A stretch of 34,125 nt of DNA from an uncultured Treponema sp. (GTDB lineage Bacteria > Spirochaetota > Spirochaetia > Treponematales > Treponemataceae). This document shows positions 5,488-33,819 of this stretch, piece by piece; position 1 is the first letter of the stretch, and every line of letters starts with the position of its first letter. The position numbers were made by a program, and so were the translations under genes. The notes beneath the pieces are model-generated. The model searched no databases and was not told the DNA's origin. It was given only the letters and a program-made list of their open reading frames with translations. The DNA is taken from NCBI GenBank assembly GCA_946411215.1, contig CAMKDH010000005.1, forward strand, positions 1 through 34,125. Direction: 5' to 3'.

Positions 5488-5522
5488 CTAATAATAGAGA
5501 AGGAAGGTATTGAAAAATTGAC
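5488..5522 (-). promoter_or_regulatory. Shared bipartite promoter-like element, copy A
   Basis: Read on the minus strand: GTCAATTTTT (5522-5513), 13 nt, CTCTATTATTAG (5499-5488). It lies 42 nt before ATG 5446. Seven further copies with the identical 13-nt gap occur in this window. TTGTCA to TATTAT is 22 nt, too long for sigma-70. Confidence 0.75.
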
Positions 5523-5557
5523 AAAATTTAAGAAATTTTTTGCAGAAAAATTAAATT

Positions 5558-7315: not shown

Positions 7316-7317
7316 AA

Positions 7318-10380: not shown

Positions 10381-10406
10381 TTTACAACTCCTACTCCACC
10401 CAGGGA

Positions 10407-11730: not shown

Positions 11731-11765
11731 CTTATAATAGAGCGTTACAATTACTAAAAATTGAC
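11731..11765 (-). promoter_or_regulatory. Shared bipartite promoter-like element, copy B
   Basis: Minus strand: GTCAATTTTT (11765-11756), 13 nt, CTCTATTATAAG (11742-11731), 30 nt before ATG 11701. The first block doubles as the last codons of the csx20-like gene (Val-Asn-Phe-stop), so the element is fixed inside coding sequence. Confidence 0.75.
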
Positions 11766-12170
11766 ACTTTTCTGAAAAATTTTTGAAAAATATTCATATT
11801 TTCTAAAACAAACATGCTCAAAAATATATTGTCTAGAAACAATTTCTCCATCACGCTGTTCAGCCGCTACCCTTTTTGTAACTGCATATAAAGGGATAAT
11901 CTTGTTCTTAAGAGCAAAATCAACAATCATAAAAGTTGAACCAAACTCTCCCTGCACAATAAGAACATCATCTTTGTCTGCAGCAGCGAGCCATCCAATT
12001 ACTGAATTTATTACGCTTAAATCGAGCTGTTCGGTTACAGGAATTTGAGACCAGGTTTTTGAGAGTTCTTCTGAAGGATATGTAATATTTGTAATTTTAT
12101 ATTTTGCTTCAAGTTCCGAAATCTGATTCTGAGTAAGTTCGTGGTTTAATAAACAATATGCTTTAGACAT
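11754..12170 (-). CDS. csx20: Csx20-like CRISPR accessory protein, probable ring nuclease
   Basis: A 138-residue protein that matches the pattern I recall for Csx20: LLNHELTQNQISELEAKY at the start, LSKTWSQIP near 40, then VLIVQGEFGSTFMIVDFAL and IIPLYAVTKR, and a final FEHVCFRKYEYF. Csx20 is found with type III systems and, as I recall, has been described as a ring nuclease that degrades the cyclic oligoadenylate made by Cas10; I cannot verify that here. If so it would turn the response off. It lies downstream of the cas operon on the same strand but has its own promoter-like element (copy C), unlike the cas genes, so its expression is set separately. Confidence 0.65.
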   Translation of the reverse strand: MSKAYCLLNHELTQNQISELEAKYKITNITYPSEELSKTWSQIPVTEQLDLSVINSVIGWLAAADKDDVLIVQGEFGSTFMIVDFALKNKIIPLYAVTKRVAAEQRDGEIVSRQYIFEHVCFRKYEYFSKIFQKSVNF

Positions 12171-12197: not shown

Positions 12198-12232
12198 CTA
12201 TTAATAGAGATTTGTTGTTTGGGAAAATTGAC
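12198..12232 (-). promoter_or_regulatory. Shared bipartite promoter-like element, copy C
   Basis: Minus strand: GTCAATTTTC (12232-12223), 13 nt, CTCTATTAATAG (12209-12198), 28 nt before ATG 12170 of the csx20-like gene. It sits in the short gap after the last cas-operon gene. Confidence 0.75.
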
Positions 12233-12244
12233 AAAAAAGAAAAA

Positions 12245-13543
12245 TTATTTTAATAAATCAAACAAATTTTCAACACCGCGTTTTCCACTTTCATAAATAG
12301 CTGGAATATTTGCAGCATGAGGATAATTTCCATCTCTATTCTTTCCACCACCATGAGCTATTTGATTTCTAAAGGCCTCAAGATTAGTTAAAGGATTTCC
12401 GATATCCTTCCACTCTGTACTATTCCATTTTTTTGTCTTTTTATCTTTTGGAAACTTATACTGGTTAAGTTTTTCCCGACCTGTGGTTTTCCACCATTCA
12501 TAATCACCATATTGATCTGGAGATCCAAATTGTTCAACAATAATAGCTTCAACTGTAACCTGCAAAGTTATTACTGCCTGTATATTCAACTTATGCTCAT
12601 TAAGAAATAATGAATAATTATATAAAGTACCTGATACTGTTGGCGCTTCCAATTTTACAATTTTCTCAAGCGATTCTTTAACAGGTAAAAGCCATTCTGG
12701 TGCATTTTGCGGATAAGCTGTAAGTGAATTTTTAATTTGTTTTATGACCTCTGTAATTTGTAAGGCAAAATTTGTTTGTACAATTTCAGAAAGACTTTTT
12801 ACGGCTTTACTACCTTTTGCCCAATATTTAGAAAGAAGTTCCGAAAGTTTAAAACCATCAAGCTTCTCATTAAAAATACTTAAAGCATTTGTTAGTTCAG
12901 AGTATTTCCAATATTCACTTAAATTTCGAACATATCCTTTTGATTTATTGTTTAAATCCAATTCACCATAAACAATTTCAACTAATTGATTTGTTTGCTG
13001 CGATAAAGAATACTGCAATGATTGATAAAGAAGAACCGGCATTGAACGAAATCCATGAGTTATATCAAAAAGAATATTATTTCCTTTTTTACAAAGTTTA
13101 GTAATGCCTGAATAACATTCAAATAATTGAGCCACAGTATTATTATCAACGCTATGAGTATGTTCCCGAATAGAAACTTCTACAGAAAAACGTTCTGTAA
13201 GATATTTTTCCAACCTGTCAAGATTTTCTCTGGTAACTCCCGAAGGTTGCTCTCCTTTATTCTTTGATTCACATTGGTCAAATAAATCGCTCCATAATTC
13301 TAGAGTTTCATCACGTTCATCTTTATCCTTGTCTACTAAACAATCCCATGAAGATGTATCTGTTCCAAGAATAATTATTTGATTTATGTCCTTATATTTA
13401 CATTCTAAAAGAGCCTGCATGAAAAGACGTGTTTGTTTATGTTGTCCATTTTCTAAAAAGTAATCAGTTTCAACATATCCTTCATAATTCTCTGTTGTTT
13501 TGTACATTCCTGTACCTATCATTGAGATTAATGTGTAGGACAT
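12245..13543 (-). CDS. Csx1/Csx2-type (TM1812 family) CARF-HEPN ribonuclease
   Basis: A 432-residue effector. The N-terminal Rossmann-like CARF domain begins SYTLISMIGTGMYK and contains IIILGTDTSSWD and the ligand-loop region ILFDITHGFRSMPVLLYQS. The C-terminal HEPN domain carries RNQIAH (Arg392 to His397), the RX4H active site. Members of this family bind cyclic oligoadenylate in the CARF domain and then cut RNA nonspecifically in the HEPN domain. ATG 13543 follows GGAGG by 7 nt and overlaps the csm5 stop as TAATG. It is the last gene of the cas operon and takes the place usually held by csm6 in III-A loci. Confidence 0.85.
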   Translation of the reverse strand: MSYTLISMIGTGMYKTTENYEGYVETDYFLENGQHKQTRLFMQALLECKYKDINQIIILGTDTSSWDCLVDKDKDERDETLELWSDLFDQCESKNKGEQPSGVTRENLDRLEKYLTERFSVEVSIREHTHSVDNNTVAQLFECYSGITKLCKKGNNILFDITHGFRSMPVLLYQSLQYSLSQQTNQLVEIVYGELDLNNKSKGYVRNLSEYWKYSELTNALSIFNEKLDGFKLSELLSKYWAKGSKAVKSLSEIVQTNFALQITEVIKQIKNSLTAYPQNAPEWLLPVKESLEKIVKLEAPTVSGTLYNYSLFLNEHKLNIQAVITLQVTVEAIIVEQFGSPDQYGDYEWWKTTGREKLNQYKFPKDKKTKKWNSTEWKDIGNPLTNLEAFRNQIAHGGGKNRDGNYPHAANIPAIYESGKRGVENLFDLLK

Positions 13544-14673
13544 TATATTTCCTCCAAAGTACATTTACACCAACCAAATGGAAGGAACTGGCCATCATAA
13601 TTGAACAAAGATCTTGTTATTCCTGTTCCTTCTCCAGAAGGTAATCGACGAAAATTTTCTTCAAATGTTATAAACTCAACTTGGCTCCATTTACCAACTC
13701 TTATTATAAATTGATTTTTAGCAGCTGTAATTGTTTTTAATTCCGATTTTAATTCTGCTATTAAATCACAACCGATGCTAGCCTCTTGATAAAACGAAGC
13801 ATATTCTTTTTCGAATTCACGAAGATAAAAATAATTACAACTGTCTATTATGTTTTTAGCAGTAATAGACCTAGATAAAGCTCTTTTGTTAACTAAATCT
13901 GAATTAATTCGCAATTGAGAAACTGTTTTATTGGGAAGACCCATGAAATATCCTTTTATAGCTTCTGCTTGAATTGGAATTGAACTTTCAAGGAGTTCTC
14001 CTGTTTGCGCATTTCGAAAAACGTTTTTTACTAATCCTACAATCTGTGAATTATCAGAAGCAAAACTACAGTCACTTATTTCCACTCCTCTAAAAGGATC
14101 GTTCTTTGCATCTTTATAATCACCAAGTAATTTAGATTGCAGTTCTTTTTCATATCGTTGTTGATTATTTGCTCTATTTAAATTTTCATAGAGCCTATCA
14201 TAAGTTTCATCACTTAGTTCATGCATCTGTTGATTTAATACAGCAGTACGTATTGCACCTTTAAGAGAACTTCCTGGAATAACAGGTGTATTTGATTCCT
14301 TTGGTCTATATATTTGCTCTACAAAGGCCGCTGTTTCATACGGATCTTTTGATCGATTTTTTCCATAAACATCATAAAAATCTTTAGTTACTTCACAAGA
14401 ATATTCAGCATCATCTTTAGGACTACAATTACTATGAAAAAAATCCATTATTCCTTTCATATTGTTTGAGGAACTAATTGTCTCAAAAGCTTTTGATTTT
14501 TCTTTATCAGTTGCAATACGCCTTAATAACTTGTCAGATGAAAATTTTAAATACTTTTGTCTTTTTTGTTCTGAGTCGACAACTATGTAATCAAGCATTG
14601 TCAACTGATTACCTGTTCCAATATGAACACAAGTTATAGGCTCTATAGTAAGTTTATATATTTGCTTAGACAT
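13543..14673 (-). CDS. csm5: Csm5, type III-A RAMP subunit
   Basis: About 376 residues. Csm5 caps the 3' end of the crRNA in the Csm complex and helps crRNA maturation. The RAMP features are the opening strand YKLTIEPITCVHIGTG, the loop VIPGSSLKGAIRTAVL and the glycine-rich end GEGTGITRSLFNYDGQ with LPFGWCKC. ATG 14673 is preferred because GGAG lies 5 nt upstream; a GTG at 14679 is in frame. It overlaps the csm4 stop region, as expected for a coupled operon. Confidence 0.88.
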   Translation of the reverse strand: MSKQIYKLTIEPITCVHIGTGNQLTMLDYIVVDSEQKRQKYLKFSSDKLLRRIATDKEKSKAFETISSSNNMKGIMDFFHSNCSPKDDAEYSCEVTKDFYDVYGKNRSKDPYETAAFVEQIYRPKESNTPVIPGSSLKGAIRTAVLNQQMHELSDETYDRLYENLNRANNQQRYEKELQSKLLGDYKDAKNDPFRGVEISDCSFASDNSQIVGLVKNVFRNAQTGELLESSIPIQAEAIKGYFMGLPNKTVSQLRINSDLVNKRALSRSITAKNIIDSCNYFYLREFEKEYASFYQEASIGCDLIAELKSELKTITAAKNQFIIRVGKWSQVEFITFEENFRRLPSGEGTGITRSLFNYDGQFLPFGWCKCTLEEI

Positions 14674-14675
14674 AA

Positions 14676-15566
14676 TCACTCCATACTATCAGATATAGGA
14701 ATAACGGGCGCAAAACCTGACTGGCATATACGAGAGTCACTGTGTATATCTGTGAGCATTTTTCCTATAAATGAAATTGGTTTGTCACTTGAAAATATTG
14801 CCCCTTCGTTAAACAATACGACAGTTTTTTTCCAAGGCTGCAAGAAGCTTGCAAAAGCTCCTCCGATTTTTCCTGTTCTAACAAAAATATCAGCCTTTAA
14901 ATCAGTAATCTCTGAATTTTCTGGTAAAACAAAAGGACCTAAAGCCATATAAGAATTTGACTTACACTTTGTTTTTATAGATTCTGGCTCGCCTACTACG
15001 GTAATTTTACCTTTACCAACAGAAGCATCTGCACCAAAACCGTTTTCAAAAGCCCAGTCTAATAATTGTTTAACTCTGTTTTTTTCATAAGAAGAAACAA
15101 TGTATATGTCAAATAATTTCACAGTTGCCCATTGTTCAGAAACAGCAAAAAGACCTCCGTCATTAACTGTATTTGAAAAACGGTTCATTGTATTATGTGT
15201 TACTTCAACTGATTCAAAAACTTTAGTTATCTTCTCATTTTCTTTCTCGTTTTGTTGCTCAAGATAAAGGGAAGAATTAATATAAATACTTTTTTTGTTT
15301 TTCTTAATCTCTGCATATTTTGCAGGTGTCATTTCTTTCTGACGTTTTTGAACAGGTGGCATTGGTTTACAAAGCATATTGTGTGGAAAAGCCGAAGAAA
15401 CGACAAAAGGCGATTCTGATGTTTTACAATCCGAAAGGAATTTATTAACAGCTTCCTCGCCTTCATGATTTGCTATTCCCCATACAACATGTCCCCAAAT
15501 AGTGTCACCTTTTAAAGGAGTAATAAGAGAAGACTCTAATTCTAATGTAACTTTATAAAGTTCCAT
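14676..15566 (-). CDS. csm4: Csm4, type III-A RAMP subunit
   Basis: A 296-residue RAMP protein that binds the 5' tag of the crRNA and contacts Cas10. Seen here are the start LYKVTLELESSLITPLKGDTIWGH, the insertion region FAVSEQWATVKLFDIYIV and the glycine-rich loop GFGADASVGKGKI (about 185-197), the hallmark of this subunit. It follows csm3 by 9 nt and leads directly to csm5. Confidence 0.88.
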   Translation of the reverse strand: MELYKVTLELESSLITPLKGDTIWGHVVWGIANHEGEEAVNKFLSDCKTSESPFVVSSAFPHNMLCKPMPPVQKRQKEMTPAKYAEIKKNKKSIYINSSLYLEQQNEKENEKITKVFESVEVTHNTMNRFSNTVNDGGLFAVSEQWATVKLFDIYIVSSYEKNRVKQLLDWAFENGFGADASVGKGKITVVGEPESIKTKCKSNSYMALGPFVLPENSEITDLKADIFVRTGKIGGAFASFLQPWKKTVVLFNEGAIFSSDKPISFIGKMLTDIHSDSRICQSGFAPVIPISDSME

Positions 15567-15575
15567 AAATGATTC

Positions 15576-16244
15576 CTAAAGTGTTATGGCATTATCATTT
15601 TCATCTTTTAATTCGACAAATTCAATTTGGCCGTTACCTCGAGTACCACCACCACCAAGATAATCATTTTGTAAAAGACGTAAACCTTCAAGAACTACAG
15701 AATCAAAGAACTCTTTATCTTTTTTTCCACCATCACCATCATCTATGATTCTATATGCTATTTCAAAATCAAATTCAACACCTGGAACGACACGTTCAAT
15801 TGGTCTAGGGTTTGCAGCCGCTGTTATTCGGTTTAAACTGTTTTCACTTTTTTCTTCAACAATTGCTTTTCCTTGTTTGAATTTTTCAGACCATTCTGTA
15901 GTCAAATTTGCATCTCGAACTATGATTCGAGTCGGTCCTTTTGATTTGTCTGCATCCCTAGAATTATTTGCGCTTCCAAAAATACGACAAATAGGACAAT
16001 CCGCTTTACCACAAGAACAAGGCTTGCCTTCACTAGCAGAAACTTTATCTAATTTCCATTCTAGTAATGAACGCATTTTTCCTTTTATAGATGAACCAGG
16101 AATATATGGCTCGCGTGTAAGAGGATTTCGAATTATTGGATTATCCATTCCACCAATTTCAACTTTGTCATTACCAGCGCCTATATGAAGACCTGTTTTT
16201 ACAATTATTTTTCCTTTTATAATTTTTAATCCAATCTGTTTCAT
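15576..16244 (-). CDS. csm3: Csm3, backbone RAMP with target-RNA cleavage Asp
   Basis: A 222-residue backbone subunit, present in several copies per Csm complex, that cuts the bound target RNA at 6-nt intervals. The catalytic Asp is kept: Asp34 in EIGGMDNPIIRNP. Other marks are PGSSIKGKMRSLLEW, a zinc-type cluster CSCGKADCPICRIFG and the glycine-rich end YLGGGGTRGNGQIEF. AAGGAGG precedes ATG 16244. With Asp34 present, sequence-specific RNA cleavage should be active. Confidence 0.93.
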   Translation of the reverse strand: MKQIGLKIIKGKIIVKTGLHIGAGNDKVEIGGMDNPIIRNPLTREPYIPGSSIKGKMRSLLEWKLDKVSASEGKPCSCGKADCPICRIFGSANNSRDADKSKGPTRIIVRDANLTTEWSEKFKQGKAIVEEKSENSLNRITAAANPRPIERVVPGVEFDFEIAYRIIDDGDGGKKDKEFFDSVVLEGLRLLQNDYLGGGGTRGNGQIEFVELKDENDNAITL

Positions 16245-16260
16245 TTTTTATCCTCCTTTT

Positions 16261-16794
16261 TTATTTTGCGCTCTTTGGGGCTTTTTCATAATAGAAACCA
16301 TATACAGCTTCAAACAAAGAAACGAAAACTTCATAATCTTTATTTGTTTTGACCAAATCAATACATGAACTTATGAATTTCTCAAGATTCTTATAAAGCC
16401 CTGCTTCGTCTGCTTTATCCTTCGCTGCACGAGCAACAGTATATGCAACCTTTGATTTAATCATTCGTATATATGGATACTGAACTTCCCATTGATCTGG
16501 AGATACTGATAAAATTTGTTCAAAGCGTTTAACTTCATCGAAAATACGACGTAATTGTGTTGATGTAATTCCTATATCAGAGCCTCTACGATTCTGTCCA
16601 ATAAACGAATTTGCAATTTTACTTGCAGTTTCATCAAATAATTCTTGCTTAATTGTTGATCCATTATCTTTATAAAATGAATCAACAACTATGGCTTGAG
16701 GTATAAAAGATTTATCCTCAAATTGTTTATTACCATAAGAATTCCTATTACCAAAGTCGCCCCTGGATCCATTATTGTTTTGTTGATAACCCAT
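16261..16794 (-). CDS. csm2: Csm2 small subunit with Asn/Gly-rich N-terminal extension
   Basis: A 177-residue helical small subunit that lines the crRNA-target duplex. The core is recognisable in TSTQLRRIFDEVKRFEQI and YIRMIKSKVAYTVARA. The first 25 residues (GYQQNNNGSRGDFGNRNS and onwards) are low-complexity Asn, Gly and Arg, longer than in usual Csm2 proteins of about 120-150 residues. Such a tail may bind RNA; this is inference. GGAGG precedes ATG 16794. Confidence 0.85.
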   Translation of the reverse strand: MGYQQNNNGSRGDFGNRNSYGNKQFEDKSFIPQAIVVDSFYKDNGSTIKQELFDETASKIANSFIGQNRRGSDIGITSTQLRRIFDEVKRFEQILSVSPDQWEVQYPYIRMIKSKVAYTVARAAKDKADEAGLYKNLEKFISSCIDLVKTNKDYEVFVSLFEAVYGFYYEKAPKSAK

Positions 16795-16807: not shown

Positions 16808-19075
16808 TTACGATTGTCTTTGTGTATATAATGCATAACATACAGCTATGCGTGATTTGATTATTTCTTCTTGAGAAGTTCCAAAATGAAGGAACCAGTC
16901 AAGCACTTCTTTTTTCTTAATATTTCTTACTGCACAGTATTTAAAATTACTTTTCCAGATATGATCATGTAAATTTGCGCTTCCTGTTTTAAGTAATTCT
17001 GACACATCACCTGTTTTTACTCGTTCGGCTCGTTTCGAAAAATCAATTAATTTATAAACGCTTCCAGATGAAATCGTTTTATTATTTAAATATTGTTCTA
17101 GACTCATGCCATCCTTCAAGCAATTAGAATAATCTTCCCATGACACTGTAGTTTCAAAAACTGTTATTGCATTTTTAACAGTATTACCATTGTTATCTTT
17201 TCTACTCTTAGAAGTTTCTAGAGCTTCTTCTGCATCTCTAGCAATATTCTTAACAGGTACAACACAAGAAGAAAGTGTTATTCCCCCAGACAATGTTATA
17301 GATGGATTATGATTTGTAAATTTCTGCAATTCTGTTTCAAAATCAGAAGCAAATTGCACAACAGCATCCCAGGCACCAAGAATACATAAATCATCTCCAC
17401 CAGAGAAAACTGTATAAATAACTTCGTCGTATTTAACTATGGTTCCATCTTTGTTATAACTATGTTTGTGAACAAAATCTGCATAATATGCTGAGAAGAA
17501 GAAATGTAAAAGATGACTTAAATCTGCATAACGAGCAAAAGACATTCTGCTTCCAAGAGAAGACGAGAAAACAAGTCCTAAATTATCTATATCAGATTTG
17601 AACATTGCAAGCTTCTTGTTTCCTTTAGATTTTTCAGAAATATCTTCAAAGGTTAATATTTCACCGTCCAAAGAAGGTGCAGTATATGGTATATACATAA
17701 CCGGTTTTCCAGGAACAAATTCATTAACAGTATATCCATTCTTTAAATCATCTTTTGGAGAAACTTTTACCATTTGTGAAAAGGATTTTAAGCTTGAAGA
17801 ATCAAAGATAATTGTTCCTGCCCGAACTAAATGGCCTCCAATATCTGTTAATTTTTTACAATCGGAACATTCACAAGGATTACCTTTATCATCTACACCA
17901 CTTGCCGGAAAAACTCCACATTTAGGGCACTCGCCATACATTTGTAATTGATTATAAAAATCACTTAGAACTGCCCCATTTTTCTGTAGGGCTTTTTGCA
18001 TTTTTTTCTGTTTACAGGTATCTGTATTTTCACCTATTCGATTCATCAAGTCTTGTACATTTTCTTTTAATAAATCATTCGCACAAGCCTCTACTCCGTC
18101 TGAAACAATTACAGCAAGCTTTCCTGCAAACTCTCGTAAAAAATAAGATTCAATTTCAAGCTGGATTTGTGGTAGGAAACTTATATTTTTCTCGGTGTTT
18201 GGAATAAGAACCATAAAGTTTCCACCTGCAGACATTATTACATTAGCAAGAGAAACATCAAATTGCTGAACAATATATTGAGAAAGAATTTCACTTAAGG
18301 CTGCAATCTGAAAGCTTTTTGCACGAAGAAGCTTTGCATTGTGTTTTGTAGTTTTTAAATCAAAAATATATTTTTGGATACCAGAAACATCGCCCTTAAT
18401 AAATCTAAATTTTTTAAGGGAATAGTCTTGCAAAGCTTCAATTGTCTGAGTATCTGTTTCTTTATGATAGTCAAATAATACAGCCGCAATTGCAGCAGAT
18501 AGTTTTGAATGCTGGTACAAACTTTCAGAATCTTCTTCAGATAATGATGGAATACACCACCAATAACGTTCTAGCAGTGAATTAAGAGCTTTTATAAAAA
18601 GATCTGTAGATTCATTAGGGAGCTTTGATAAACCTTCCTCAAAATCTTTCCATAATTTTTGATAATCTGCTTTAGCCGTTTTGTAATTTTCTTTTGAGAC
18701 AGGAAGCATACCCGCTGATTCTAATGGCTGAAATTTACAATATGATATTTCAGCTTTTTTTCGTTCGGGAATCTGCAAGGTTGAAACAAGATGCTGCAAC
18801 AATGTTGGATTTTCATAAAACTTTGAATTATTATTTTTACAAATATCATTATTTCCACTGCTCAGACAATCAGCATAGGCTATAAGATTTTCCTCATAAG
18901 AAAAAGGGTTCTGCCAGTTATTAATTAATTGTTTTACATTTTCTTTATTAATAGTTTTTGGCAAAACAGATTCAAGTATAGTCAAGACTGAACTATCTTT
19001 GGCATAAAATAAAATATTATGTAACCAGGCTGCTATTATTATTTCATCTTTTTCTATATTCAACATTTCTTGCAT
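16808..19075 (-). CDS. cas10: Cas10/Csm1: intact cyclase palm, altered HD site
   Basis: A 755-residue large subunit. The cyclase palm has an intact GGDD (residues 559-562, VFSGGDDLCILG), which in this family makes cyclic oligoadenylate when target RNA is bound. The zinc region is CPKCGVFPASG to CECSDCKK. The N-terminal HD-nuclease region reads AAWLHNILFYAKD: His19 is followed by Asn20 instead of Asp, and the later conserved D-H of Csm1 proteins is QH (SLYQHSKLSAAIAA). The ssDNA nuclease is therefore probably lost or weak, and the system should act mainly through RNA cleavage and signalling. Start ATG 19075; an internal ATG at 19066 is also possible. Confidence 0.93.
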   Translation of the reverse strand: MQEMLNIEKDEIIIAAWLHNILFYAKDSSVLTILESVLPKTINKENVKQLINNWQNPFSYEENLIAYADCLSSGNNDICKNNNSKFYENPTLLQHLVSTLQIPERKKAEISYCKFQPLESAGMLPVSKENYKTAKADYQKLWKDFEEGLSKLPNESTDLFIKALNSLLERYWWCIPSLSEEDSESLYQHSKLSAAIAAVLFDYHKETDTQTIEALQDYSLKKFRFIKGDVSGIQKYIFDLKTTKHNAKLLRAKSFQIAALSEILSQYIVQQFDVSLANVIMSAGGNFMVLIPNTEKNISFLPQIQLEIESYFLREFAGKLAVIVSDGVEACANDLLKENVQDLMNRIGENTDTCKQKKMQKALQKNGAVLSDFYNQLQMYGECPKCGVFPASGVDDKGNPCECSDCKKLTDIGGHLVRAGTIIFDSSSLKSFSQMVKVSPKDDLKNGYTVNEFVPGKPVMYIPYTAPSLDGEILTFEDISEKSKGNKKLAMFKSDIDNLGLVFSSSLGSRMSFARYADLSHLLHFFFSAYYADFVHKHSYNKDGTIVKYDEVIYTVFSGGDDLCILGAWDAVVQFASDFETELQKFTNHNPSITLSGGITLSSCVVPVKNIARDAEEALETSKSRKDNNGNTVKNAITVFETTVSWEDYSNCLKDGMSLEQYLNNKTISSGSVYKLIDFSKRAERVKTGDVSELLKTGSANLHDHIWKSNFKYCAVRNIKKKEVLDWFLHFGTSQEEIIKSRIAVCYALYTQRQS

Positions 19076-19084: not shown

Positions 19085-19999
19085 CTACTCCCACTTTGTC
19101 CAAAAGTCCAATTGACCGAGTCCGAAATTTGTATTTTTCCCAGCGTTGAACAGTCTGCTAAATTCTATGAGATTCTGCTCATGTGCAGAGAAACTTCCCT
19201 GAAGTTTTATAGTGCCTAAGGCTCCACCTATATTCATTGCTTCTTTTTGGCGGGCTGAATAATGTCGATTGTCCTGCCAGCTAAGATTTTTTTCAATAAT
19301 TTTATTCTTGTCTGACGGATTAAAACTAAAATCTTCTGCAGCATCTCCATACAAACTACAAAGGGTTTTTGCTCGACGATACAAACAAGCAAAAAAATCC
19401 TGTGAAGAAAAATCTGTGCCATACTTGCCACCGTACTTAAAACGCACAGGTGTTTTTAGTTCTATCAAAACTTCGCCTTTTTTTTCTGGAAGTGCTAAAT
19501 CAATTTGCCAGATCTTTGATGTTACAGATGTATCAAGATGTTCGGTATCAAGCAGGATATTGTTTCCATCAACTTCAACACGAACAACTTCAAAAGGTGT
19601 ACGGCTTTTAAATATTCCATCCTTTCCAGCCCGCACAAAAGCAGCATATATATATGGGAGATAATCAATCGCTTTTCCTAAAAGTGTGATAGTAAAATCA
19701 TATTCGCTGATTTCAGTACCAGAGCTGAAAGTTCCACTGCTAAAAACAAATGGATGCGAAGCCCTGTCTCGTCCTGGGGTTACATTATTATCTGTTGGAA
19801 GAATTGTTTCAAACAAAAAAGCATAAGCACAAGTACGGTTGTACATACATTCCGGACATTTATTCTGGTGCGCAATGCAACTCATTGAATGCAGATTTTT
19901 ACCTAGCATGGAACGAAGAATAAAAAGGGGGGGAGTGTCAGCAAGAACTGGATGAGAAAAACATAAAGTGAACTTTATTGGAAGGTATGAGAGAAGCAT
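19085..19999 (-). CDS. cas6: Cas6 pre-crRNA endoribonuclease
   Basis: A 304-residue RAMP protein of the Cas6 family that cuts the repeat RNA to make crRNAs with a short 5' tag. Typical marks are the cysteine region CPECMYNRTCAYAFLFE (about 48-64), the long beta-rich middle with PFEVVRVEV, and the glycine-rich end NFGLGQLDFW. It is more divergent than the canonical small Cas6 enzymes. Its ATG overlaps the stop of the preceding gene as TAATG, so the two are translationally coupled, and it lies just before cas10. Confidence 0.85.
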   Translation of the reverse strand: MLLSYLPIKFTLCFSHPVLADTPPLFILRSMLGKNLHSMSCIAHQNKCPECMYNRTCAYAFLFETILPTDNNVTPGRDRASHPFVFSSGTFSSGTEISEYDFTITLLGKAIDYLPYIYAAFVRAGKDGIFKSRTPFEVVRVEVDGNNILLDTEHLDTSVTSKIWQIDLALPEKKGEVLIELKTPVRFKYGGKYGTDFSSQDFFACLYRRAKTLCSLYGDAAEDFSFNPSDKNKIIEKNLSWQDNRHYSARQKEAMNIGGALGTIKLQGSFSAHEQNLIEFSRLFNAGKNTNFGLGQLDFWTKWE

Positions 20000-20976
20000 T
20001 ACAAACCGGCCTTATCCAATTTTTGTCTGTATTCTTCATTTATTAAGTTTTCAAATCTATCGTAAGTATTTCCTATACTTGATTCGTTGATACCACACAT
20101 TAAACCTATTGATTTTCTGTCTGTATTTGGTTTCCAATTATTGTCTTTTGTAAAGTTTTCAAGTTCAGTTTTGTCAATTAAGTCATAGGGAGCTAAGAAT
20201 TGTTCAATATCCAGCCCAGATAAATTTTCGTTTAGTAAAGCTGCCAAAAGTATATTTGTAAACCAACGGGAATAAAAAACATCATTTTTTTGATTTTTAC
20301 CTTTTTTACGAAGATATACTTTATTAGCAGCTTTTATATAAAGACTCAGCTTTTTAAGGAGTATTTCTTGATTTTCCTCAAATCCAAACAAATCTTTTTC
20401 ACTCAAAAAATCAAAGACCTCTGAATTTGAGTCATCACTCTCAACCGTCTGGTTTCCCTCTATTACATTTTTCTTATCTAACCAATCTAAAGCTTTTTTA
20501 ATTTGTTCATCACTCTTACCCCAGGAATGTCCATATTCAAAAAGTTTGGCTTCAACATAAGAATTTCGTTTATAAATATTTGTGGTCAAACCTTTTAGTT
20601 CCGCCCACTTTGCTAAATCGCGCCCCAGTTTTATAACATCTTTGCTTACTTCTGAAATTCCTTTTTTGCTTTCATCGGTTTTTGTATTAAATAATTTCTG
20701 TTTTAATACATATCCAAACAAGCTTATCCAAGAATCTGGTTTTCCCTCCAGACATTCTATAATAGCATCAGAAATAGAATCTTCAAAAATCTCTTCATCA
20801 ATATCAGAATATTTTAATACTTTCAAAAGCTCTGCATATTCCCATAATTCTTTTGAAAGTTTGTTACGACAAATTCTCCAGGCTGAATTATCATTGTTCC
20901 TTTCTTCATCTGAAAAATTAAGGAATTCCTTTCCAAGAGTTTCTATGCTGTCTTTTAAGTGATTAAAATCTGCCAT
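19999..20976 (-). CDS. Possible divergent sigma-70-like / HTH protein within the cas operon
   Basis: Not a known Cas protein. The 325-residue chain reads like a stretched sigma factor: SISDAIIECLEGKPDSWISL with LFGYVLKQKLFN (about 66-97) resembles the region 2 core helix; GISEVSKDVIKLGRDLAKWA and KSDEQIKKALDWLDKKNVIEG resemble region 3; the end, DRKSIGLMCGINESSIGNTY, is a helix-turn-helix like region 4. A long lysine-rich insertion (LRKKGKNQKND) separates the parts. It is the second gene of the operon, between a CARF-only protein and cas6, coupled to the latter. The alternative is a plain HTH regulator or an unknown structural protein. The sigma call is by pattern only and should be tested by profile or structure comparison. 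Confidence 0.45.
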   Translation of the reverse strand: MADFNHLKDSIETLGKEFLNFSDEERNNDNSAWRICRNKLSKELWEYAELLKVLKYSDIDEEIFEDSISDAIIECLEGKPDSWISLFGYVLKQKLFNTKTDESKKGISEVSKDVIKLGRDLAKWAELKGLTTNIYKRNSYVEAKLFEYGHSWGKSDEQIKKALDWLDKKNVIEGNQTVESDDSNSEVFDFLSEKDLFGFEENQEILLKKLSLYIKAANKVYLRKKGKNQKNDVFYSRWFTNILLAALLNENLSGLDIEQFLAPYDLIDKTELENFTKDNNWKPNTDRKSIGLMCGINESSIGNTYDRFENLINEEYRQKLDKAGL

Positions 20977-20985
20977 AATTAAACT

Positions 20986-21627
20986 CTATAGAGCAAAAAA
21001 CTTATCTAAGCGCGCAAGAGCTGTTTTTCCATCAGGAGCTTCCATTACAGAAGTAAGAGAATTCAAATAATACAATGATGTTACATCATAGAGTTCACAA
21101 GTTCCAGGAACAGGATGTCCCCCATCGAATTCTGCTTTATCATAAAGAATATTTTTAATATCTGCATTAAAGAATTTTTCTGCAAAACCTAAAACATAAA
21201 ATAGAACAGGAATAAGTGTTTTGGAACCATAGGTCATATCCAAAATAATCTGTCTGTCTTCTTCTAAAACTCCTATTAATTCTCTAAAGCGTTTTTCAAT
21301 AGTTTTTCCAGAATCATCATAATCTGTTATAATAGGTTTATAATCAATTTTGGCACCAATGTTATTGTTCAGTTCATCTAATTCTTGTTGTTGAATTTCG
21401 GCATTTCTTACAGCACTTGATTTTGACGAGTTTACAAGTATTTGTATAATTTTTACATCATCACCTTTATTTAACGTTTTTGCAAGAAAACCATTTATTG
21501 CAAAATGCACTTTATTGTTATATTCGTATTTTTTATTTTCATTGAATGTATAAAAATATCCCTGAGGATCCCATCCTTTTCCTTCAATAGATTGAATTGG
21601 AATTGTAACGAATACTGTTTTTTTCAT
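20986..21627 (-). CDS. Stand-alone CARF-domain protein
   Basis: A 213-residue protein with the fold pattern of the TM1812-type CARF domain: KKTVFVTIPIQSIEGKGW at the start, VKIIQILVNSS as a central strand, and the ligand-loop signature IILDMTYGSKTLIPVLFYVLG, which lines up with ILFDITHGFRSMPVLLYQS in the CARF-HEPN nuclease of the same operon. The closing ELYDVTSLYYLNSL also matches that family. There is no HEPN, nuclease or HTH domain after it, so it should sense cyclic oligoadenylate and pass the signal to a partner. It is the first gene behind the sigma-70 promoter and sits next to the sigma-like gene. A ring-nuclease role is the main alternative. Confidence 0.75.
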   Translation of the reverse strand: MKKTVFVTIPIQSIEGKGWDPQGYFYTFNENKKYEYNNKVHFAINGFLAKTLNKGDDVKIIQILVNSSKSSAVRNAEIQQQELDELNNNIGAKIDYKPIITDYDDSGKTIEKRFRELIGVLEEDRQIILDMTYGSKTLIPVLFYVLGFAEKFFNADIKNILYDKAEFDGGHPVPGTCELYDVTSLYYLNSLTSVMEAPDGKTALARLDKFFAL

Positions 21628-21652: not shown

Positions 21653-21681
21653 ATTATAACATAGATTATTTTATCTGTAAA
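21653..21681 (-). promoter_or_regulatory. Sigma-70 promoter of the type III-A operon
   Basis: Minus strand: TTTACA (21681-21676), 17 nt, TATAAT (21658-21653), about 20 nt from the predicted start of transcription to ATG 21627. Near-consensus, and clearly different from the shared bipartite element around it. Confidence 0.8.
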
Positions 21682-21706: not shown

Positions 21707-21875
21707 TTATTGTCCTTTATCAAAAGCTTTGTTGAATTTGCTGAACTTTTTAGCAGTTTCTTACCTTATAAGAACCATCCTTGCAATATTCAATCATTGG
21801 AATATGTTCAACATTTGCAACGCTGTACCATTTTCCATCAATCAATTCTTTATGCCATTTAACAGTACTTTTCAT
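21707..21875 (-). pseudogene. Deletion-damaged copy of the 77-residue protein gene
   Basis: ATG 21875 opens a copy of the gene at 10147-10380: MKSTVKWHKELIDGKWYSVA continues to SYKVRNC and then meets a stop at 21750. The C-terminal part (ETAKKFSKFNKAFDKG) is still present downstream in another frame, to a stop at 21707. Compared with the intact copy, 62 bp are missing, exactly the distance between two GCAGTTTC repeats there, one of which is left here. It follows the DUF1232 gene with AAGGA before the ATG. The truncated product might still be made. Confidence 0.8.
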
Positions 21876-21888
21876 TCTTTTTTCCTTC

Positions 21889-22293
21889 TTATGCCACTTT
21901 CTGTCCCATTTCTTCCTTGTACTTCTGAACATCGAATTGTGTAAAGCGTAAACTCATTCTTATAATAAATGCGTCGTCAATGTAACCAATGACAGGTATG
22001 TAATCCGGGATAATATCCTGCGGGTTCAGGACATAAAGGAGTGTACATACAATGGTGGCAATTGTTCCAAAAGGAATCTTTTTGTATTTTCCGGTTACAA
22101 TGTCACGAAGCATCCTAAAGTAGAGTTTTACATCTTCCACAAATTTAATGAGTTCAGGGTTCTTAAGAATCTTGTTGATTTTGCTTTCGTTGTCCAGGAC
22201 CTTCTTTAAGTCATCGTCGGTGTAGTTTTTGAATGAATCAAATTTATCTTTGAGCTGTTCTTTAATTTCTTCTTTGTTGAATTTGTTTTCCAT
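21889..22293 (-). CDS. DUF1232 (YkvA-like) membrane protein
   Basis: A 134-residue protein with the DUF1232 core: the hydrophobic helix IPFGTIATIVCTLLYVLNP, then the signature PQDIIPDYIPVIGYIDDAF. The family is membrane associated and of unknown function. The N-terminal half is charged and helical (FNKEEIKEQLKDKFDSFK). AGGAG precedes ATG 22293, and element D lies 32 nt upstream. The damaged small-protein gene follows 14 nt downstream. Confidence 0.85.
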   Translation of the reverse strand: MENKFNKEEIKEQLKDKFDSFKNYTDDDLKKVLDNESKINKILKNPELIKFVEDVKLYFRMLRDIVTGKYKKIPFGTIATIVCTLLYVLNPQDIIPDYIPVIGYIDDAFIIRMSLRFTQFDVQKYKEEMGQKVA

Positions 22294-22324: not shown

Positions 22325-22359
22325 CTTTTAATAGAGACATGGAAATTGGAAAAATTGAC
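22325..22359 (-). promoter_or_regulatory. Shared bipartite promoter-like element, copy D
   Basis: Minus strand: GTCAATTTTT (22359-22350), 13 nt, CTCTATTAAAAG (22336-22325), 32 nt before ATG 22293. AAAAGTGTAAA continues into the leader and is shared with copy E. Confidence 0.75.
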
Positions 22360-22394
22360 AGATTTTGAAAAGTTTTTTTGATTTTTTTCTAAAT

Positions 22395-22422: not shown

Positions 22423-22432
22423 TGGTTTTGTG

Positions 22433-22686
22433 GTTGTAATCCCTTGAAGCAGGTCAATGTTTTAGACTCCGAAGTTTATCAAGAAAGAGACGGTGGGAAA
22501 AAGGTCTTAATCCCTTAAAGCAGGTCAATGTTTTAGACAAGATCACATACCACGAGTCATGTGAACTTGAATCATGGTCTTAATCCCTTAAAGCAGGTCA
22601 ATGTTTTAGACTGACAAGCTATGCTAATGGTGGAATGACACCAACTGGCGCGTCTTAATCCCTTAAAGCAGGTCAATGTTTTAGAC
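22433..22686 (-). CRISPR. CRISPR array, four 35-nt repeats and three spacers
   Basis: Repeats at 22433-22467, 22504-22538, 22577-22611 and 22652-22686; spacers of 36, 38 and 40 nt. On the plus strand each repeat begins GTCTTAATCCCTT and ends GTTTTAGAC; the ends are inverted repeats. On the minus strand it ends AAGGGATTAAGAC, similar to the common AAGGGATTGAAAC end, so the 5' tag would be ATTAAGAC. The first copy (22433) has three changes, as expected for the repeat farthest from the leader. Leader and promoter therefore lie above 22687, and the terminator at 22395 agrees. No cas1 or cas2 is in the window. Cas6 of the adjacent operon is the likely processing enzyme. Confidence 0.97.
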
Positions 22687-23052: not shown

Positions 23053-23087
23053 CTTTTAATAGATACTGGAAGTTCTGAAAAATTGGT
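23053..23087 (-). promoter_or_regulatory. Shared bipartite promoter-like element, variant copy E
   Basis: Minus strand: ACCAATTTTT (23087-23078), 13 nt, ATCTATTAAAAG (23064-23053), 31 nt before ATG 23022. It differs from consensus at the first two bases of the upstream block and the first base of the downstream block, and may be weaker. Confidence 0.6.
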
Positions 23088-23149
23088 AAATTTTCAGTTA
23101 TTTTTTTTCGCATCGCCTCTTTTACTTTGAAATAGTTTTCTTAATAAAT

Positions 23150-24663: not shown

Positions 24664-26319
24664 TTATTGTATCCATTGTTTTATTCTGTCCTTCAATTCA
24701 AATTTTTTACCATTTGTGAATCTGTCTTCTTCTGCTAAATATCCGGAAACGCGGCGTAATCTTCGGATATTTTTTGAGGAACACTTTGGGCACAGGCCTG
24801 ATATTCTTCCTATGAAACCGCAGTCATTACAGTTATCAAGTGGAAAGTTAATTCCAATATAATTACAGCCCTTGTTCCAGGCGTATTCTACAACTTCCTG
24901 AACGGCGTCTACATTTCGGTCCGGCATTTCTTCCAGCTCTACATAAGTGATAGAACCACCGTTGCACAACTCGTGGAAATCGGCTTCCATATCAACCTTT
25001 TCCATATAACTTGTTTCAATGAAAACAGGAACATGGAAAGAATTTGTGTAATAACCTTTTTCGCATACATCGAATCCTTTCCCGTCATGGGTTGAATCAT
25101 ACGCTGTAAATGAACCTGTAACACCTTCTGCTGCAGATGCCAAAAGAGAAAAGTTCAGGTTATTTTCTTTTATATAAGAATCGGTACGCTCACGCATAAA
25201 ACGCACTACAGATAATGCCTCTTCCTTAAAAGGCAGCATGTCTGAAATAGCTTCCCACTTTTTTCCATGTAATACAGAAAGAGCATCCCAAAGACCAATG
25301 AAGCCTATTGAAAGTGTTCCATTACGGAGCATTTCGTGTACATCATCTTTGTCCTGGTCTTTGTAAACTTTATGCAATTGCAATTCCGAAAAATCAGCAT
25401 TATTTGCAAGCGTTTCAAAACGATGAAGCAACAATTCTTTGGAATCTTCCATTGCAGCTCCAACAAGTTCAAGGAATTTTTCCAAACTGCCCTGCGCACT
25501 AAATGCCAGCTGGACAAGATTCATTGTTACACATGCAATGTTACCCCTGTTCAATCCGGAAGCTTCCCCATAGAGATTTGATACAACTCTTGTTCTGCAG
25601 CCCATTATACCAATTTTATTTGAAGGCGCATTTTTGTTTGCAGGGGAATCGCAATTAAAATATGTTGGAACCATTCTGCGTGCTGTTACAGACAATGCTT
25701 TTAAATACAAATCATGATTAGGAGAATCCTCGCTTACGTTTGTATCCTTCTTAAGCTTAAATACAAGATTTGGAAAAATAAAAGGATTTCCTTTCTCATC
25801 TCCTTTTGAATATGCTTCAAGAAGAAGACGACTTACCCTTCTTCCTTCATCACTTGTATTCAGTCCAAAGTTAAATGTAACATAAGGTTTCTCACAGCCT
25901 TTTCGTGTAAAACTATTAAGATCAAAAAAGAATTCTCTGATATCTTCGATAGCCTGATCATCGTTGTAATCTTTGTTCAGAAATGCGGCCATATCTGTAT
26001 CAAAATCAAGAAAGCCAATACCGCCAGACTGCAAGTTAGTAAGCCATACAATTTTTCTACCAAGACTGCGTAGTGCCGCACCAAAGTTTTGTTGAGTTTT
26101 CCCAATCAAATCTTCGGCTCGTATTCCAATACAGTTATATGTAATTGAATAAAACTCAAGATCATGGATGTGGACTGTTCTGTTTTTATGATTTTGAGAA
26201 GCCTTCAAAGGAATTACAGAATCCAAAAGCTGTTTCTTAATTGTCTCTTCGCCAAGCTTTACGATTGCTCCTGCTGCATTTCCTATACTGTTTGCTAAAT
26301 CTTTTCCACTCTTGTTCAT
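24664..26319 (-). CDS. nrdD: Anaerobic (class III) ribonucleotide reductase, short form without ATP cone
   Basis: About 551 residues. It reduces ribonucleoside triphosphates to dNTPs with a glycyl radical made by NrdG. Seen: HIHDLEFY near the start, active-site cysteines in YNCIGIRAE and GNIACVTMNL, the C-terminal zinc site CNDCGFIG with CPKCSS, and the glycyl-radical loop RVSGYL with the Gly near residue 526. The ATP-cone domain that regulates the roughly 700-residue E. coli enzyme is absent, as in phage and some mobile-element enzymes. ATG 26319 is preferred: it overlaps the nrdG stop as ATGA with AAGGG upstream. Transcribed from element F. Confidence 0.9.
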   Translation of the reverse strand: MNKSGKDLANSIGNAAGAIVKLGEETIKKQLLDSVIPLKASQNHKNRTVHIHDLEFYSITYNCIGIRAEDLIGKTQQNFGAALRSLGRKIVWLTNLQSGGIGFLDFDTDMAAFLNKDYNDDQAIEDIREFFFDLNSFTRKGCEKPYVTFNFGLNTSDEGRRVSRLLLEAYSKGDEKGNPFIFPNLVFKLKKDTNVSEDSPNHDLYLKALSVTARRMVPTYFNCDSPANKNAPSNKIGIMGCRTRVVSNLYGEASGLNRGNIACVTMNLVQLAFSAQGSLEKFLELVGAAMEDSKELLLHRFETLANNADFSELQLHKVYKDQDKDDVHEMLRNGTLSIGFIGLWDALSVLHGKKWEAISDMLPFKEEALSVVRFMRERTDSYIKENNLNFSLLASAAEGVTGSFTAYDSTHDGKGFDVCEKGYYTNSFHVPVFIETSYMEKVDMEADFHELCNGGSITYVELEEMPDRNVDAVQEVVEYAWNKGCNYIGINFPLDNCNDCGFIGRISGLCPKCSSKNIRRLRRVSGYLAEEDRFTNGKKFELKDRIKQWIQ

Positions 26320-26804
26320 GCGCATCCCTTCTCTAACAAATCCATTTCAACTAGTGTTCCGTTTCCAATTTTACGGTACATATGCTGATTATCTGAACCA
26401 ACGTACATCAGTGACGGATTGAGTTTGGTTTTGTCAAAGCCACCACACTTAAGATAGTTTACGCGGTCCCAAACCATCTTCGGAACTCTATTCAAGGACC
26501 ATCCTGTGTAGACACAAATATTATAGTCCCGCTCATTTAATATATCAAGAATTGCAATGAGTGCATCAAGCTGTTCGAGGGGTTCGCCACCAGATATGGT
26601 TATCTTTTTGTTGTGGCATTCACTTTCTATAAGAGAAATAACTTCTTCAACGGACAATTTCTTTCCGCAGCCTTTTTGATGTGTTGAAGAATTCTGGCAT
26701 CCTGGACAGTGCATGCTGCATCCCTGAAAAAACAATACGCTACGCATGCCGGGACCATCATCACAACTTGTCTTTTTCCATCCTGCACATTCAACATACA
26801 TCAT
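26316..26804 (-). CDS. nrdG: Anaerobic ribonucleotide reductase activating protein
   Basis: A 162-residue radical-SAM enzyme that installs the glycyl radical in NrdD. The cluster motif is CSMHCPGC (CX3CX2C), preceded by DDGPGMRSVLFFQG; ITISGGEPLEQ is the SAM-binding GGE region. AGGAGG precedes ATG 26804. It is upstream of and overlaps nrdD, the usual partnership though not the usual order. Element F lies 29 nt upstream. Confidence 0.93.
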   Translation of the reverse strand: MMYVECAGWKKTSCDDGPGMRSVLFFQGCSMHCPGCQNSSTHQKGCGKKLSVEEVISLIESECHNKKITISGGEPLEQLDALIAILDILNERDYNICVYTGWSLNRVPKMVWDRVNYLKCGGFDKTKLNPSLMYVGSDNQHMYRKIGNGTLVEMDLLEKGCA

Positions 26805-26832
26805 TGGTATTCCTCCTCTTAATAAAGCTCTA

Positions 26833-26867
26833 TGTTAATTAGAGAAGTTTGATGTGCAAAAATTGAC
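26833..26867 (-). promoter_or_regulatory. Shared bipartite promoter-like element, copy F
   Basis: Minus strand: GTCAATTTTT (26867-26858), 13 nt, CTCTAATTAACA (26844-26833), 29 nt before ATG 26804 of nrdG. It begins only 4 nt after the kinase-like gene. Confidence 0.7.
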
Positions 26868-26870
26868 AAA

Positions 26871-27497
26871 TTAGGCAGAAAATTTGTGGTTTATTGAAGG
26901 ATCATCATCAAGGTGTCTTGCAACTGCATCAAGAGTTTTATCTACTATCTGTTTGCGGGAAATTCCTGAAGTTGAGATTGTCACCCATTCATATGGGGTT
27001 CGGTCCATTATATGTGAAAAAATGTAATTATACTTTTGAGCACGTTCCAATGTTATGTCGTCAAATCCTTCTGCATTACGTTCTATGATTCGTTTAACAC
27101 GTTCTTCCATATCGCAGGTAAGACGTATAACGCAAAGCGGAGTTGCCATTAAAGGAATCAATTCATCAAGCTTCTTGTCCACTTCTGAAACACTCCAGTT
27201 TCTGTCTGCAAAGGCAGCCGCAAGAGAACTTGGCCAATAACGAATGAGTATATTTGTATCAAACTGGGAATCATATTTCTTTACGAGTCTACTGCACTCC
27301 AAATTGTAATTGAGGAATGATGTTACCGGAGCTATGTGTCCGCCTTTGCCGGCTTCTTCCCGAGCCTGGGTAAGAGCAGCTTTTGCATCTGGATGGTATG
27401 TAAGAATATTGAAACCGTAAGGGGCAAGGCCCTGAGCTAAAGTGTCTTTTCCTGTTCCGTTATCACCTTCAATAACTATAAAGTTCTTCTTTGACAT
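26871..27497 (-). CDS. P-loop kinase resembling thymidylate kinase
   Basis: A 208-residue P-loop protein. It opens FIVIEGDNGTGKDTLAQGL, a Walker A of the GX4GKDT type typical of dTMP and related nucleotide kinases. DTNILIRYWPSSLAAAFADR and LCVIRLTCDMEERVKRIIER resemble the substrate and LID regions. It is more divergent than a housekeeping thymidylate kinase and the phosphate acceptor is uncertain. Its neighbour is nrdG-nrdD, so a shared role in dNTP supply is likely. AGGAGG-like site before ATG 27497; element G upstream. Confidence 0.75.
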   Translation of the reverse strand: MSKKNFIVIEGDNGTGKDTLAQGLAPYGFNILTYHPDAKAALTQAREEAGKGGHIAPVTSFLNYNLECSRLVKKYDSQFDTNILIRYWPSSLAAAFADRNWSVSEVDKKLDELIPLMATPLCVIRLTCDMEERVKRIIERNAEGFDDITLERAQKYNYIFSHIMDRTPYEWVTISTSGISRKQIVDKTLDAVARHLDDDPSINHKFSA

Positions 27498-27528
27498 AAA
27501 ATTCCTCCGTTTATAATTTTCTCTATCA

Positions 27529-27563
27529 CTTTTATTAGAGACCTGTCAGTTTAGAAAATTGAC
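27529..27563 (-). promoter_or_regulatory. Shared bipartite promoter-like element, copy G
   Basis: Minus strand: GTCAATTTTC (27563-27554), 13 nt, CTCTAATAAAAG (27540-27529), 32 nt before ATG 27497. It stands back to back with copy H across 48 nt of A+T-rich DNA. Confidence 0.75.
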
Positions 27564-27611
27564 ATAAAAAATAAAAAAATCATAAATTGCGAAAAATTTT
27601 TTTTATATTGT

Positions 27612-27646
27612 GTCAATTTTTCAATACAACACGTCTCTATTATAAA
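27612..27646 (+). promoter_or_regulatory. Shared bipartite promoter-like element, copy H
   Basis: Plus strand: GTCAATTTTT (27612-27621), 13 nt, CTCTATTATAAA (27635-27646), 44 nt before ATG 27690. The only plus-strand copy; its presence on both strands excludes simple orientation bias. Confidence 0.75.
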
Positions 27647-27689
27647 TAGCTGTTCATCTTAGCGATGAGAATCTTATGGAGGTTTTAAT

Positions 27690-28118
27690 ATGATGATTAA
27701 TTCGGTTAGCTTAGGTCTTTTCTTTAATGCGGTGCTTTTGCTCTCATTTCTTTTTCTTTACTTTAACGACCCGGACGCTTTCTATTCGAAAATGTATTCA
27801 CGCATTTTTAGAATTAAATTTTTCTTCAGAACTCATTTTGGCAAGACAGGAAAAGAGTATAAAGAAAAATATAAGTCTTTATCCAGAACTATCAGTCGCT
27901 GTGAATACTTAATTTCCAGATATGTTAATAAGAAAAATCTTTCTACGCTTTCTGATGATGAAACTCTACAGAATCTTTTAAAGCATTACAAAGAACTTTT
28001 GTATATCGACTCTCTTCCGGAAGAAGAAGTGTCCCTTGAAAAAATCAATAAGGAATGGGAAGAAATTATAGATTTGTATCTTCCAGAAATGGATCCTTAT
28101 TACCAGGGTGATTTTTAA
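27690..28118 (+). CDS. Small membrane-anchored protein of the helicase operon
   Basis: A 142-residue protein with one N-terminal membrane helix (SLGLFFNAVLLLSFLFLYF) and a charged helical cytoplasmic part (SEDEE-like regions, KKNLSTLSDDETLQNLLKHY). GGAGG lies 7 nt before ATG 27690. First gene behind element H; the SNF2 protein follows after 51 nt. No family recognised. It may tether or regulate the helicase. Confidence 0.65.
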   Translation: MMINSVSLGLFFNAVLLLSFLFLYFNDPDAFYSKMYSRIFRIKFFFRTHFGKTGKEYKEKYKSLSRTISRCEYLISRYVNKKNLSTLSDDETLQNLLKHYKELLYIDSLPEEEVSLEKINKEWEEIIDLYLPEMDPYYQGDF

Positions 28119-28169
28119 TTGGAATTTGATAGCATTCTGAGATATTATGGTTTACAATAGGAAGCCACG

Positions 28170-30878: not shown

Positions 30879-30978
30879 ATCGCAAAAATTCTTTAAAATT
30901 TCTCAAAATTTTTTCATTTTATATCACAAAATGAGAGTCTGGCCACCTATATTAATATAAGCAAATATGGAGGATTTT

Positions 30979-33303: not shown

Positions 33304-33320
33304 GGTCGGGGTGCACGCTC

Positions 33321-33713: not shown

Positions 33714-33781
33714 ATGCAGAATCTCCTTTTTTTATTGGTTATCTTTAAAATACCATATAATAGAAAATTTTTCCACCTTGC

Positions 33782-33810
33782 TTGACAAGTTAGCATGCGC
33801 TAACTATAAT
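33782..33810 (+). promoter_or_regulatory. Consensus sigma-70 promoter of feoA with overlapping operator
   Basis: TTGACA (33782-33787), 17 nt, TATAAT (33805-33810): both hexamers perfect. The inverted repeat GTTAGCATGCGCTAAC (33789-33804) fills the spacer, so a bound repressor would block RNA polymerase. Confidence 0.9.
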
Positions 33811-33819
33811 CTTTTATGA

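Follow-up and report, generated by a model that had tools for sequence, protein, structure and literature searches.

A conserved pair of genes for a CARF protein and a sigma-70-related protein heads diverse defence operons in Treponema and other bacteria

Introduction

In the Calp system, the signal of type III CRISPR immunity reaches a sigma factor via a SAVED protein, a protease, and an anti-sigma factor (PMC11229360). The locus described here resembles CalpL-CalpT-CalpS in that a type III signal would be passed to a sigma factor. However, the sensor is a CARF protein and not a SAVED protein, the sigma-like gene adjoins that of the sensor itself, and most copies of the pair are located outside CRISPR loci. 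Control of transcription by a CARF sensor is also known from Csa3 and other CARF-wHTH regulators (PMC8699464, PMC4012209). Csa3 is a single protein with its own DNA-binding domain, whereas the output considered here is a separate sigma factor. In the RsiG-WhiG complex with c-di-GMP (PDB 7lq4), a partner protein places a sigma factor under the control of a nucleotide second messenger. RsiG-WhiG differs from the CARF-sigma pair in its sensor fold and messenger and is not a defence system, but it is an earlier example of a sigma factor governed by a second messenger.

The Cap controllers, CapW/BrxR, CapH+CapP, and CapK+CapS, are repressors that answer DNA damage and stand at the heads of immune operons (PMC13373217). 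The CARF-sigma pair is similar to them because it also consists of regulatory genes heading diverse immune operons. However, it combines a CARF protein with a sigma-70-like protein and does not contain a WYL, HTH-peptidase, or STAS DNA-binding repressor. An arrangement named UAS-58, a "two-component RNAPol + CARF" near type III loci, is mentioned briefly, in a single phrase, in the main text of a previous paper (PMC10910872). UAS-58 places a CARF protein with a transcription-related protein and is possibly the same pair as that described here; the main text of that paper gives it no sigma assignment, promoter, or distribution outside CRISPR loci (PMC10910872). The type III surveys consulted contain no description of the CARF-sigma pair.

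The pair looks like an unrecognised route to switch on bacterial immunity genes. If this is true, sigma-factor activation would join the known ways of switching on bacterial immunity, and nucleotide sensing by CARF would be linked directly to RNA polymerase. In type III systems, cyclic oligoadenylate would then raise the surveillance complex together with the ring nuclease, forming a feedback loop.

Results and Discussion

Gene organization of the locus

The window, that is, the whole stretch of DNA analysed (34,125 nucleotides from an uncultured Treponema sp.), contains a minus-strand gene run in the order DUF1232, CARF, the 325-aa partner, cas6, csm1 (Cas10), csm2–csm5, CARF2-HEPN (Csx1-type), and Csx20 (Table 1). 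The earlier note on this DNA had placed two ORFs at the head of the cas operon, and both were confirmed there, encoding the CARF protein and its partner. The gap between the two genes is 9 nt. Coupling of the partner to cas6 had also been proposed, and the stop codon of the former overlaps the start codon of the latter by 1 base (TAATG at 19999). The layout is, as had been suggested, unlike that of CalpL-CalpT-CalpS: the operon has no recognisable protease or anti-sigma gene, and neither a SAVED-Lon protease nor any other protease was found among its scanned proteins (cas6, csm1–5, Csx1, and Csx20).

A DUF1232 gene is also located 5' of CARF in the closest relative locus (L027). The CARF gene itself has a sigma70-like site, the spacing of which before CARF is the same in two other loci (L028 and L030); therefore, basal CARF expression may be provided by the housekeeping sigma factor. 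A 124-nt direct repeat with 87% identity occurs at 10258–10381 and 21753–21876 of the window, with a 54-nt companion repeat at 10150 and 21707. One copy of the 124-nt repeat is just 5' of CARF; therefore, part of this region is duplicated. By eye, the N-terminus of Cas10 (16808–19075) has WLHN in place of a possible HD nuclease motif. The HD nuclease may thus be degenerate, with the cyclase left as the active part.

Table 1. Features of the window, with the strand and the supporting evidence or remark
Feature	Position	Strand	Evidence or remark
Stand-alone CARF sensor, 213 aa	20986..21627	-	PADLOC CARF2--CARF 1.1e-69; TIGR02221 5.5e-9, below cut-off; Foldseek
Sigma-70-related partner, 325 aa	19999..20976	-	Family profile, leave-one-out, model, sigma-2 match
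Predicted regions of the partner	Residues 6-108 (sigma-2), 174-199 (disordered linker), 200-323 (C-terminal helices with helix-turn-helix)		
DUF1232 gene, directly 5' of CARF	21889..22293	-	PF06803 3.6e-13
cas6	19085..19999	-	PADLOC Cas6 8e-73; PF10040
csm1/cas10 with GGDD (residue 559)	16808..19075	-	TIGR02578 4e-156
csm2, csm3, csm4, csm5	13543..16794	-	csm5 PADLOC 3.5e-33; csm2-csm4 by order and sequence
CARF2-HEPN (Csx1-type) effector	12245..13564	-	PADLOC 8.8e-154
Csx20, cA4 ring-nuclease family	11754..12170	-	PADLOC Csx20 7e-46
CRISPR array, four 36-nt repeats, beyond head of gene run	22432..22686	.	
Sigma70-like site TTTACA-N17-TATAAT before CARF	21653..21681	-	Read from sequence
Promoter-like element before DUF1232, exact	22329..22360	-	35 nt ahead of start codon
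Promoter-like element before Csx20, exact	12202..12233	-	31 nt ahead of start codon
Promoter-like element before 119-aa gene, exact	11735..11766	-	33 nt ahead of start codon
Promoter-like element before 61-aa ORF (start 5446), exact	5492..5523	-	
Promoter-like element before 142-aa gene and SNF2-type helicase, exact	27611..27642	+	
Promoter-like element before thymidylate-kinase-like gene, 1 mismatch	27533..27564	-	
Promoter-like element before NrdG-like gene, 2 mismatches	26837..26868	-	
Weak promoter-like element before 57-aa ORF (start 23022), facing CRISPR array, 3 mismatches	23057..23088	-	

CARF sensor and its putative ligand

The first protein of the pair had been described as a CARF domain without an effector, carrying a DMTYGSKTLIPV loop. 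This description was borne out: the loop is present, the protein matches the PADLOC CARF2--CARF profile over its full length, and fold and sequence agree on a CARF2 protein. The best Foldseek matches of the CARF model are Csx1/Csm6-type CARF proteins, including Csx1-Crn2 (9e-8), Csm6, Can2, and Csa3, and several of the structures closest to the model were solved with cA4. The DxTxG loop is conserved; in 36 relatives, T132 and G134 are invariant and D130 is nearly invariant. The ligand in this window is probably cA4 because the CARF model is nearest to cA4-type CARFs, and the Cas10 GGDD motif and Csx20, a family that degrades cA4 (PMC12409355), are found in the same gene run.

CARF-only proteins are among the known ring nucleases, and one of them, Sso2081, is among the Foldseek matches of the CARF model. 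Ring nucleases are also common in type III loci (PMC12409355). These points would fit a CARF protein that mainly clears cyclic oligoadenylate as a ring nuclease, next to a sigma-like protein that acts alone. However, a dedicated ring nuclease, Csx20, is already present in the same gene run, the CARF protein and its partner are kept together in genomes without a clear Cas10, and their evolutionary distances are correlated (see below). We therefore consider a mere clearing role improbable and favour a sensor that controls its partner.

Sigma-70-related partner

The 325-aa protein alone gave no match in Pfam, PADLOC, PHROGs, or other direct family searches, and as a sequence query against 148 related genomes, plasmids, and viral contigs it found only itself. 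Since its own sequence search found no relatives, the partner family was gathered with CARF as bait. The gene 3' of CARF is codirectional and usually encodes 245–380 aa. A family profile was built from 36 aligned partners and compared with the PDB; it matched SigA at 5.7e-11, and nearly all of the matches listed were RNA-polymerase sigma factors. TIGR02937 (NCBIfam sigma70-ECF) is matched by 14 of the 36 members and Pfam sigma region 3 by four, and many single members gave weak or no sigma matches. A phylum scan with the family profile also recovers ORFs of ordinary sigma-factor size at 30–50 bits. In a leave-one-out comparison, the window protein matched the profile of the other 35 members at 2.2e-29 over nearly its full length. 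The window protein is therefore sigma-70-related, because it fits the family profile end to end and the family is itself sigma-70-related.

A model of the 325-aa protein predicted alone has a mean pLDDT of 87.5 and contains a sigma-2 fold. Residues 6–108 match the sigma-2 domain of SigE (5or5) with an rmsd of 2.8 Å over 87 residues, and residues 14–98 match BldN with 2.3 Å over 72 residues. Among the matches listed, the 50 structural neighbours of the model are sigma factors. The whole-chain structural matches have rmsd values above 15 Å, and Foldseek with the whole model gave weak E-values (best 0.11); therefore, the assignment is less secure for the C-terminal part than for sigma-2. A sigma-4 fold is more weakly indicated, by the topology and the helix-turn-helix of the model. 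Profile and predicted fold together identify the 325-aa protein as a member of a fast-evolving sigma-70-related family. The earlier note had recognised sigma-like patterns in this protein and had proposed a comparison with sigma-70 profiles. Homology was obtained through the family profile, and the sigma-2 fold agrees with it; the part of the claim that did not stand is recognition from the window protein alone.

Conservation and distribution of the pair

The CARF protein was found in 45 of 196 genomes of the genus. When the CARF alignment was used to search named genomes, 65 loci were obtained, mostly in Treponema, with T. saccharophilum DSM 2985, T. vincentii OMZ 806, and T. bryantii NK4A124 among the named carriers. 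Outside Treponema, the carriers are MAGs labelled Fibrobacter, Clostridiales, Christensenella, Alphaproteobacteria, Agathobacter, and UBP6, and the isolate Hornefia butyriciproducens. All sets pooled contain 82 distinct CARF relatives (Treponema, Bacillota, and other MAGs); 80 are testable, and the other two run off their contigs. In 78 of the 80 testable loci, which belong to several bacterial phyla, a sigma-like gene detected by the profile comes next after CARF. In the two loci without a profile match (L107, minus strand, and L162), CARF is followed by proteins of 335 and 313 aa in which sigma-2-like stretches were seen by eye. The genes for a stand-alone CARF protein and a sigma-70-related protein stand next to each other as a conserved pair.

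The distances among CARF proteins and among their partners are correlated (r = 0.72; 0 of 2000 permutations). The sigma partner diverges far faster, with a median identity of 18% versus 39% for CARF. One locus (L136) was left out of the trees, since its "sigma" reads into galactokinase-like sequence and is probably a chimera.

An apparent CARF-sigma fusion in two loci (L051 and L131) was rejected, because a deletion has connected CARF with the mid-portion of the sigma gene, the end of which lies in another frame. The deletion remnant (L051, 9737–10534; L131, 6001–6798) fronts an otherwise intact MoxR operon. The 382-kb plasmid pTS2 of T. saccharophilum also carries a CARF-sigma pair (L174, 6001–7587); it is annotated as a TM1812 family CRISPR-associated protein followed by a hypothetical protein, and the stretch has no annotated cas gene. 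A human-gut scaffold filed as a phage (MT835511.1; L175, 2933–9402) has a WYL-like gene, then the CARF-sigma pair and VWA-, PP2C-, and kinase-like genes, the last three named by eye. This scaffold is probably a bacterial defence island.

Promoter-like elements

A bipartite element, TGTCAATTTT-N14-CTCTATTA, is repeated in the window. The 2.5-Mb genome has five exact copies, all within the window; no copy occurs in three other genomes. When up to three mismatches are allowed, 8 of the 11 sites in the genome are in the window, and shuffles of the window give at most one. The eight window sites (five exact and three near-matches) are all located 31–47 nt ahead of start codons. The shorter form TGTCAATTTT-N14-CTC occurs at 14 sites in ten genomes (reversed control, 0). 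Eleven of these sites are on contigs with a CARF pair (seven in the window, two in G247, and one each in G209 and G065), and three are elsewhere. The closest relative locus (L027) also has related sites, which are located before the Csx20 homologue and other genes.

Other subgroups have different versions. In one of them, the sole conserved stretch 5' of CARF is TATCAACT-N16/17-CTAATA. TGTCAAC is found 5' of CARF in 19 of 81 loci (expected, 0.38). On the coding strand, 26 of 81 loci have the bipartite pattern of the TGTCAA..CTA class in their 1.5 kb of upstream sequence, compared with 0 on the opposite strand and 0.6 in shuffles; because the patterns were drawn from the same loci in which they were later counted, more weight should be given to the strand and genome-wide controls. 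Some subgroups lack a promoter-like element. The upstream regions of CARF-sigma modules contain bipartite, subfamily-specific elements that resemble promoters. Such a dedicated putative promoter supports a real sigma function of the partner, and it indirectly suggests that the partner would bind core RNA polymerase and initiate transcription in a promoter-specific manner. The elements are concrete targets and allow the regulon to be predicted from sequence.

The very fast divergence of the partner and the weak or absent sigma matches of many members could also be explained if the sigma-derived fold no longer starts transcription and acts on the operon as a DNA-binding repressor or adaptor. However, the bipartite elements, with their fixed spacing and their position ahead of start codons, look like promoters, and the subfamilies have their own versions of them. 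A repressor or adaptor is therefore quite unlikely in our view, and an active sigma factor is preferred.

The window at 24664–33303 contains NrdD, NrdG-like, thymidylate-kinase-like, SNF2/DarB-like helicase, and double-AAA genes, several of which begin with the promoter-like element. This gene content suggests a plasmid or mobile element, as do the PcfJ-like and antirestriction-helicase-like genes of the contig. A phage origin was rejected, as 26871–34125 has no DNA match to phage records, and no terminal overlap was found that would indicate a circular contig. The repeated element might be a property of the entire mobile element and be read by another factor, with the CARF-sigma pair as a passenger. 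The sites before the NrdG, kinase, and helicase genes, which are not necessarily defence genes, agree with this, and so do the PcfJ-like and antirestriction-like genes. Nevertheless, we regard a passenger role as unlikely. CARF pairs of unrelated loci and genera also have related elements in front of them, the CTAATA form occurs only once in each of the genomes G226 and G227, directly before CARF, and no sigma-like protein other than the 325-aa partner (P0001) was found on the contig. A dedicated element read by the partner of CARF remains our preferred reading.

Cargo operons and the source of the signal

The genes behind the pair include type III-A/III-D cas genes, MoxR-VWA, DUF6884-kinase-VWA-PP2C, a Card1-like nuclease, AbiD-like (Abi) genes, and kinase-helicase genes. 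A wide variety of defence or conflict operons begin with the CARF-sigma pair. The CRISPR-linked pairs group together in a single branch of the CARF tree, with support values of 100/98.

A clear Cas10, defined by a cut that we set at 38 bits, was detected in approximately 12 of the 196 genus genomes and in 6 of the 45 CARF carrier genomes, where it is enriched (Fisher p = 0.03); the incompleteness of MAGs limits every statement of absence, including that of Cas10. The occurrence with Cas10 expected of a type III cyclic oligoadenylate effector is seen in the window itself and not across the carriers. The presence of the pair does not depend on Cas10. The earlier note had seen a new output of type III immunity in this locus. 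The conserved pairing of CARF with a sigma-70 family protein upholds one half of this proposal, but its type III specificity is not upheld, given the few carriers with Cas10 and the many operons unrelated to CRISPR. A module serving type III systems only was rejected, because most copies are outside CRISPR loci.

In most of the other carriers, no Cas10 was found, which raises the question of the signal that CARF reads there; this signal would come from another source. As a source of cyclic nucleotides, mCpol was searched for in 17 carrier genomes and found in none. A CD-NTase (SMODS) is present in 6 of the 45 carrier genomes. In one genome without a clear Cas10, a CD-NTase (SMODS) gene (G154:C9:9868-10353) is located approximately 7 kb from the CARF-sigma pair of locus L036; this CD-NTase is possibly another signal source.

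Proposed mechanism

In its features, the module resembles a regulator of the operon to which it belongs rather than an effector. We think it likely that the pair is a CARF-controlled, self-regulating two-gene sigma switch for defence operons. The nucleotide-bound state of CARF would hold, release, or help to load the sigma partner. The active sigma factor would then take RNA polymerase to promoters of the TGTCAA..CTA type, that of its own operon first, which would result in positive feedback. In the window, cA4 from the Cas10 of the same operon would be the most likely signal. The simplest scheme is that cA4 changes CARF, sigma is freed or loaded, and the cas operon, sigma itself, and the ring nuclease are switched on. 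The targets in the window would be the DUF1232-CARF-sigma-cas genes, the Csx20 ring nuclease, which would provide negative feedback, and further genes on the contig. We infer that CARF would act directly on the sigma factor. A model of a CARF-sigma read-through fusion had a pTM of 0.44 and gave no confident placement of the two proteins relative to each other.

In a broader form, CARF-sigma pairs would be widespread controllers of immune operons that use a nucleotide signal to arm a dedicated sigma factor directly. The subfamilies would each have their own promoter and different cargo, and outside type III CRISPR the nucleotide would come from another source. We give this generalisation an even chance of being correct.

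Two adjacent STAND/AAA-type ATPase genes, one with TPR repeats, are located at 5558–10077 of the window and are possibly further defence genes. In two other type III-A operons of the genus (L095 and L102), which are without the CARF-sigma pair, a 730-aa gene is present 5' of cas6.
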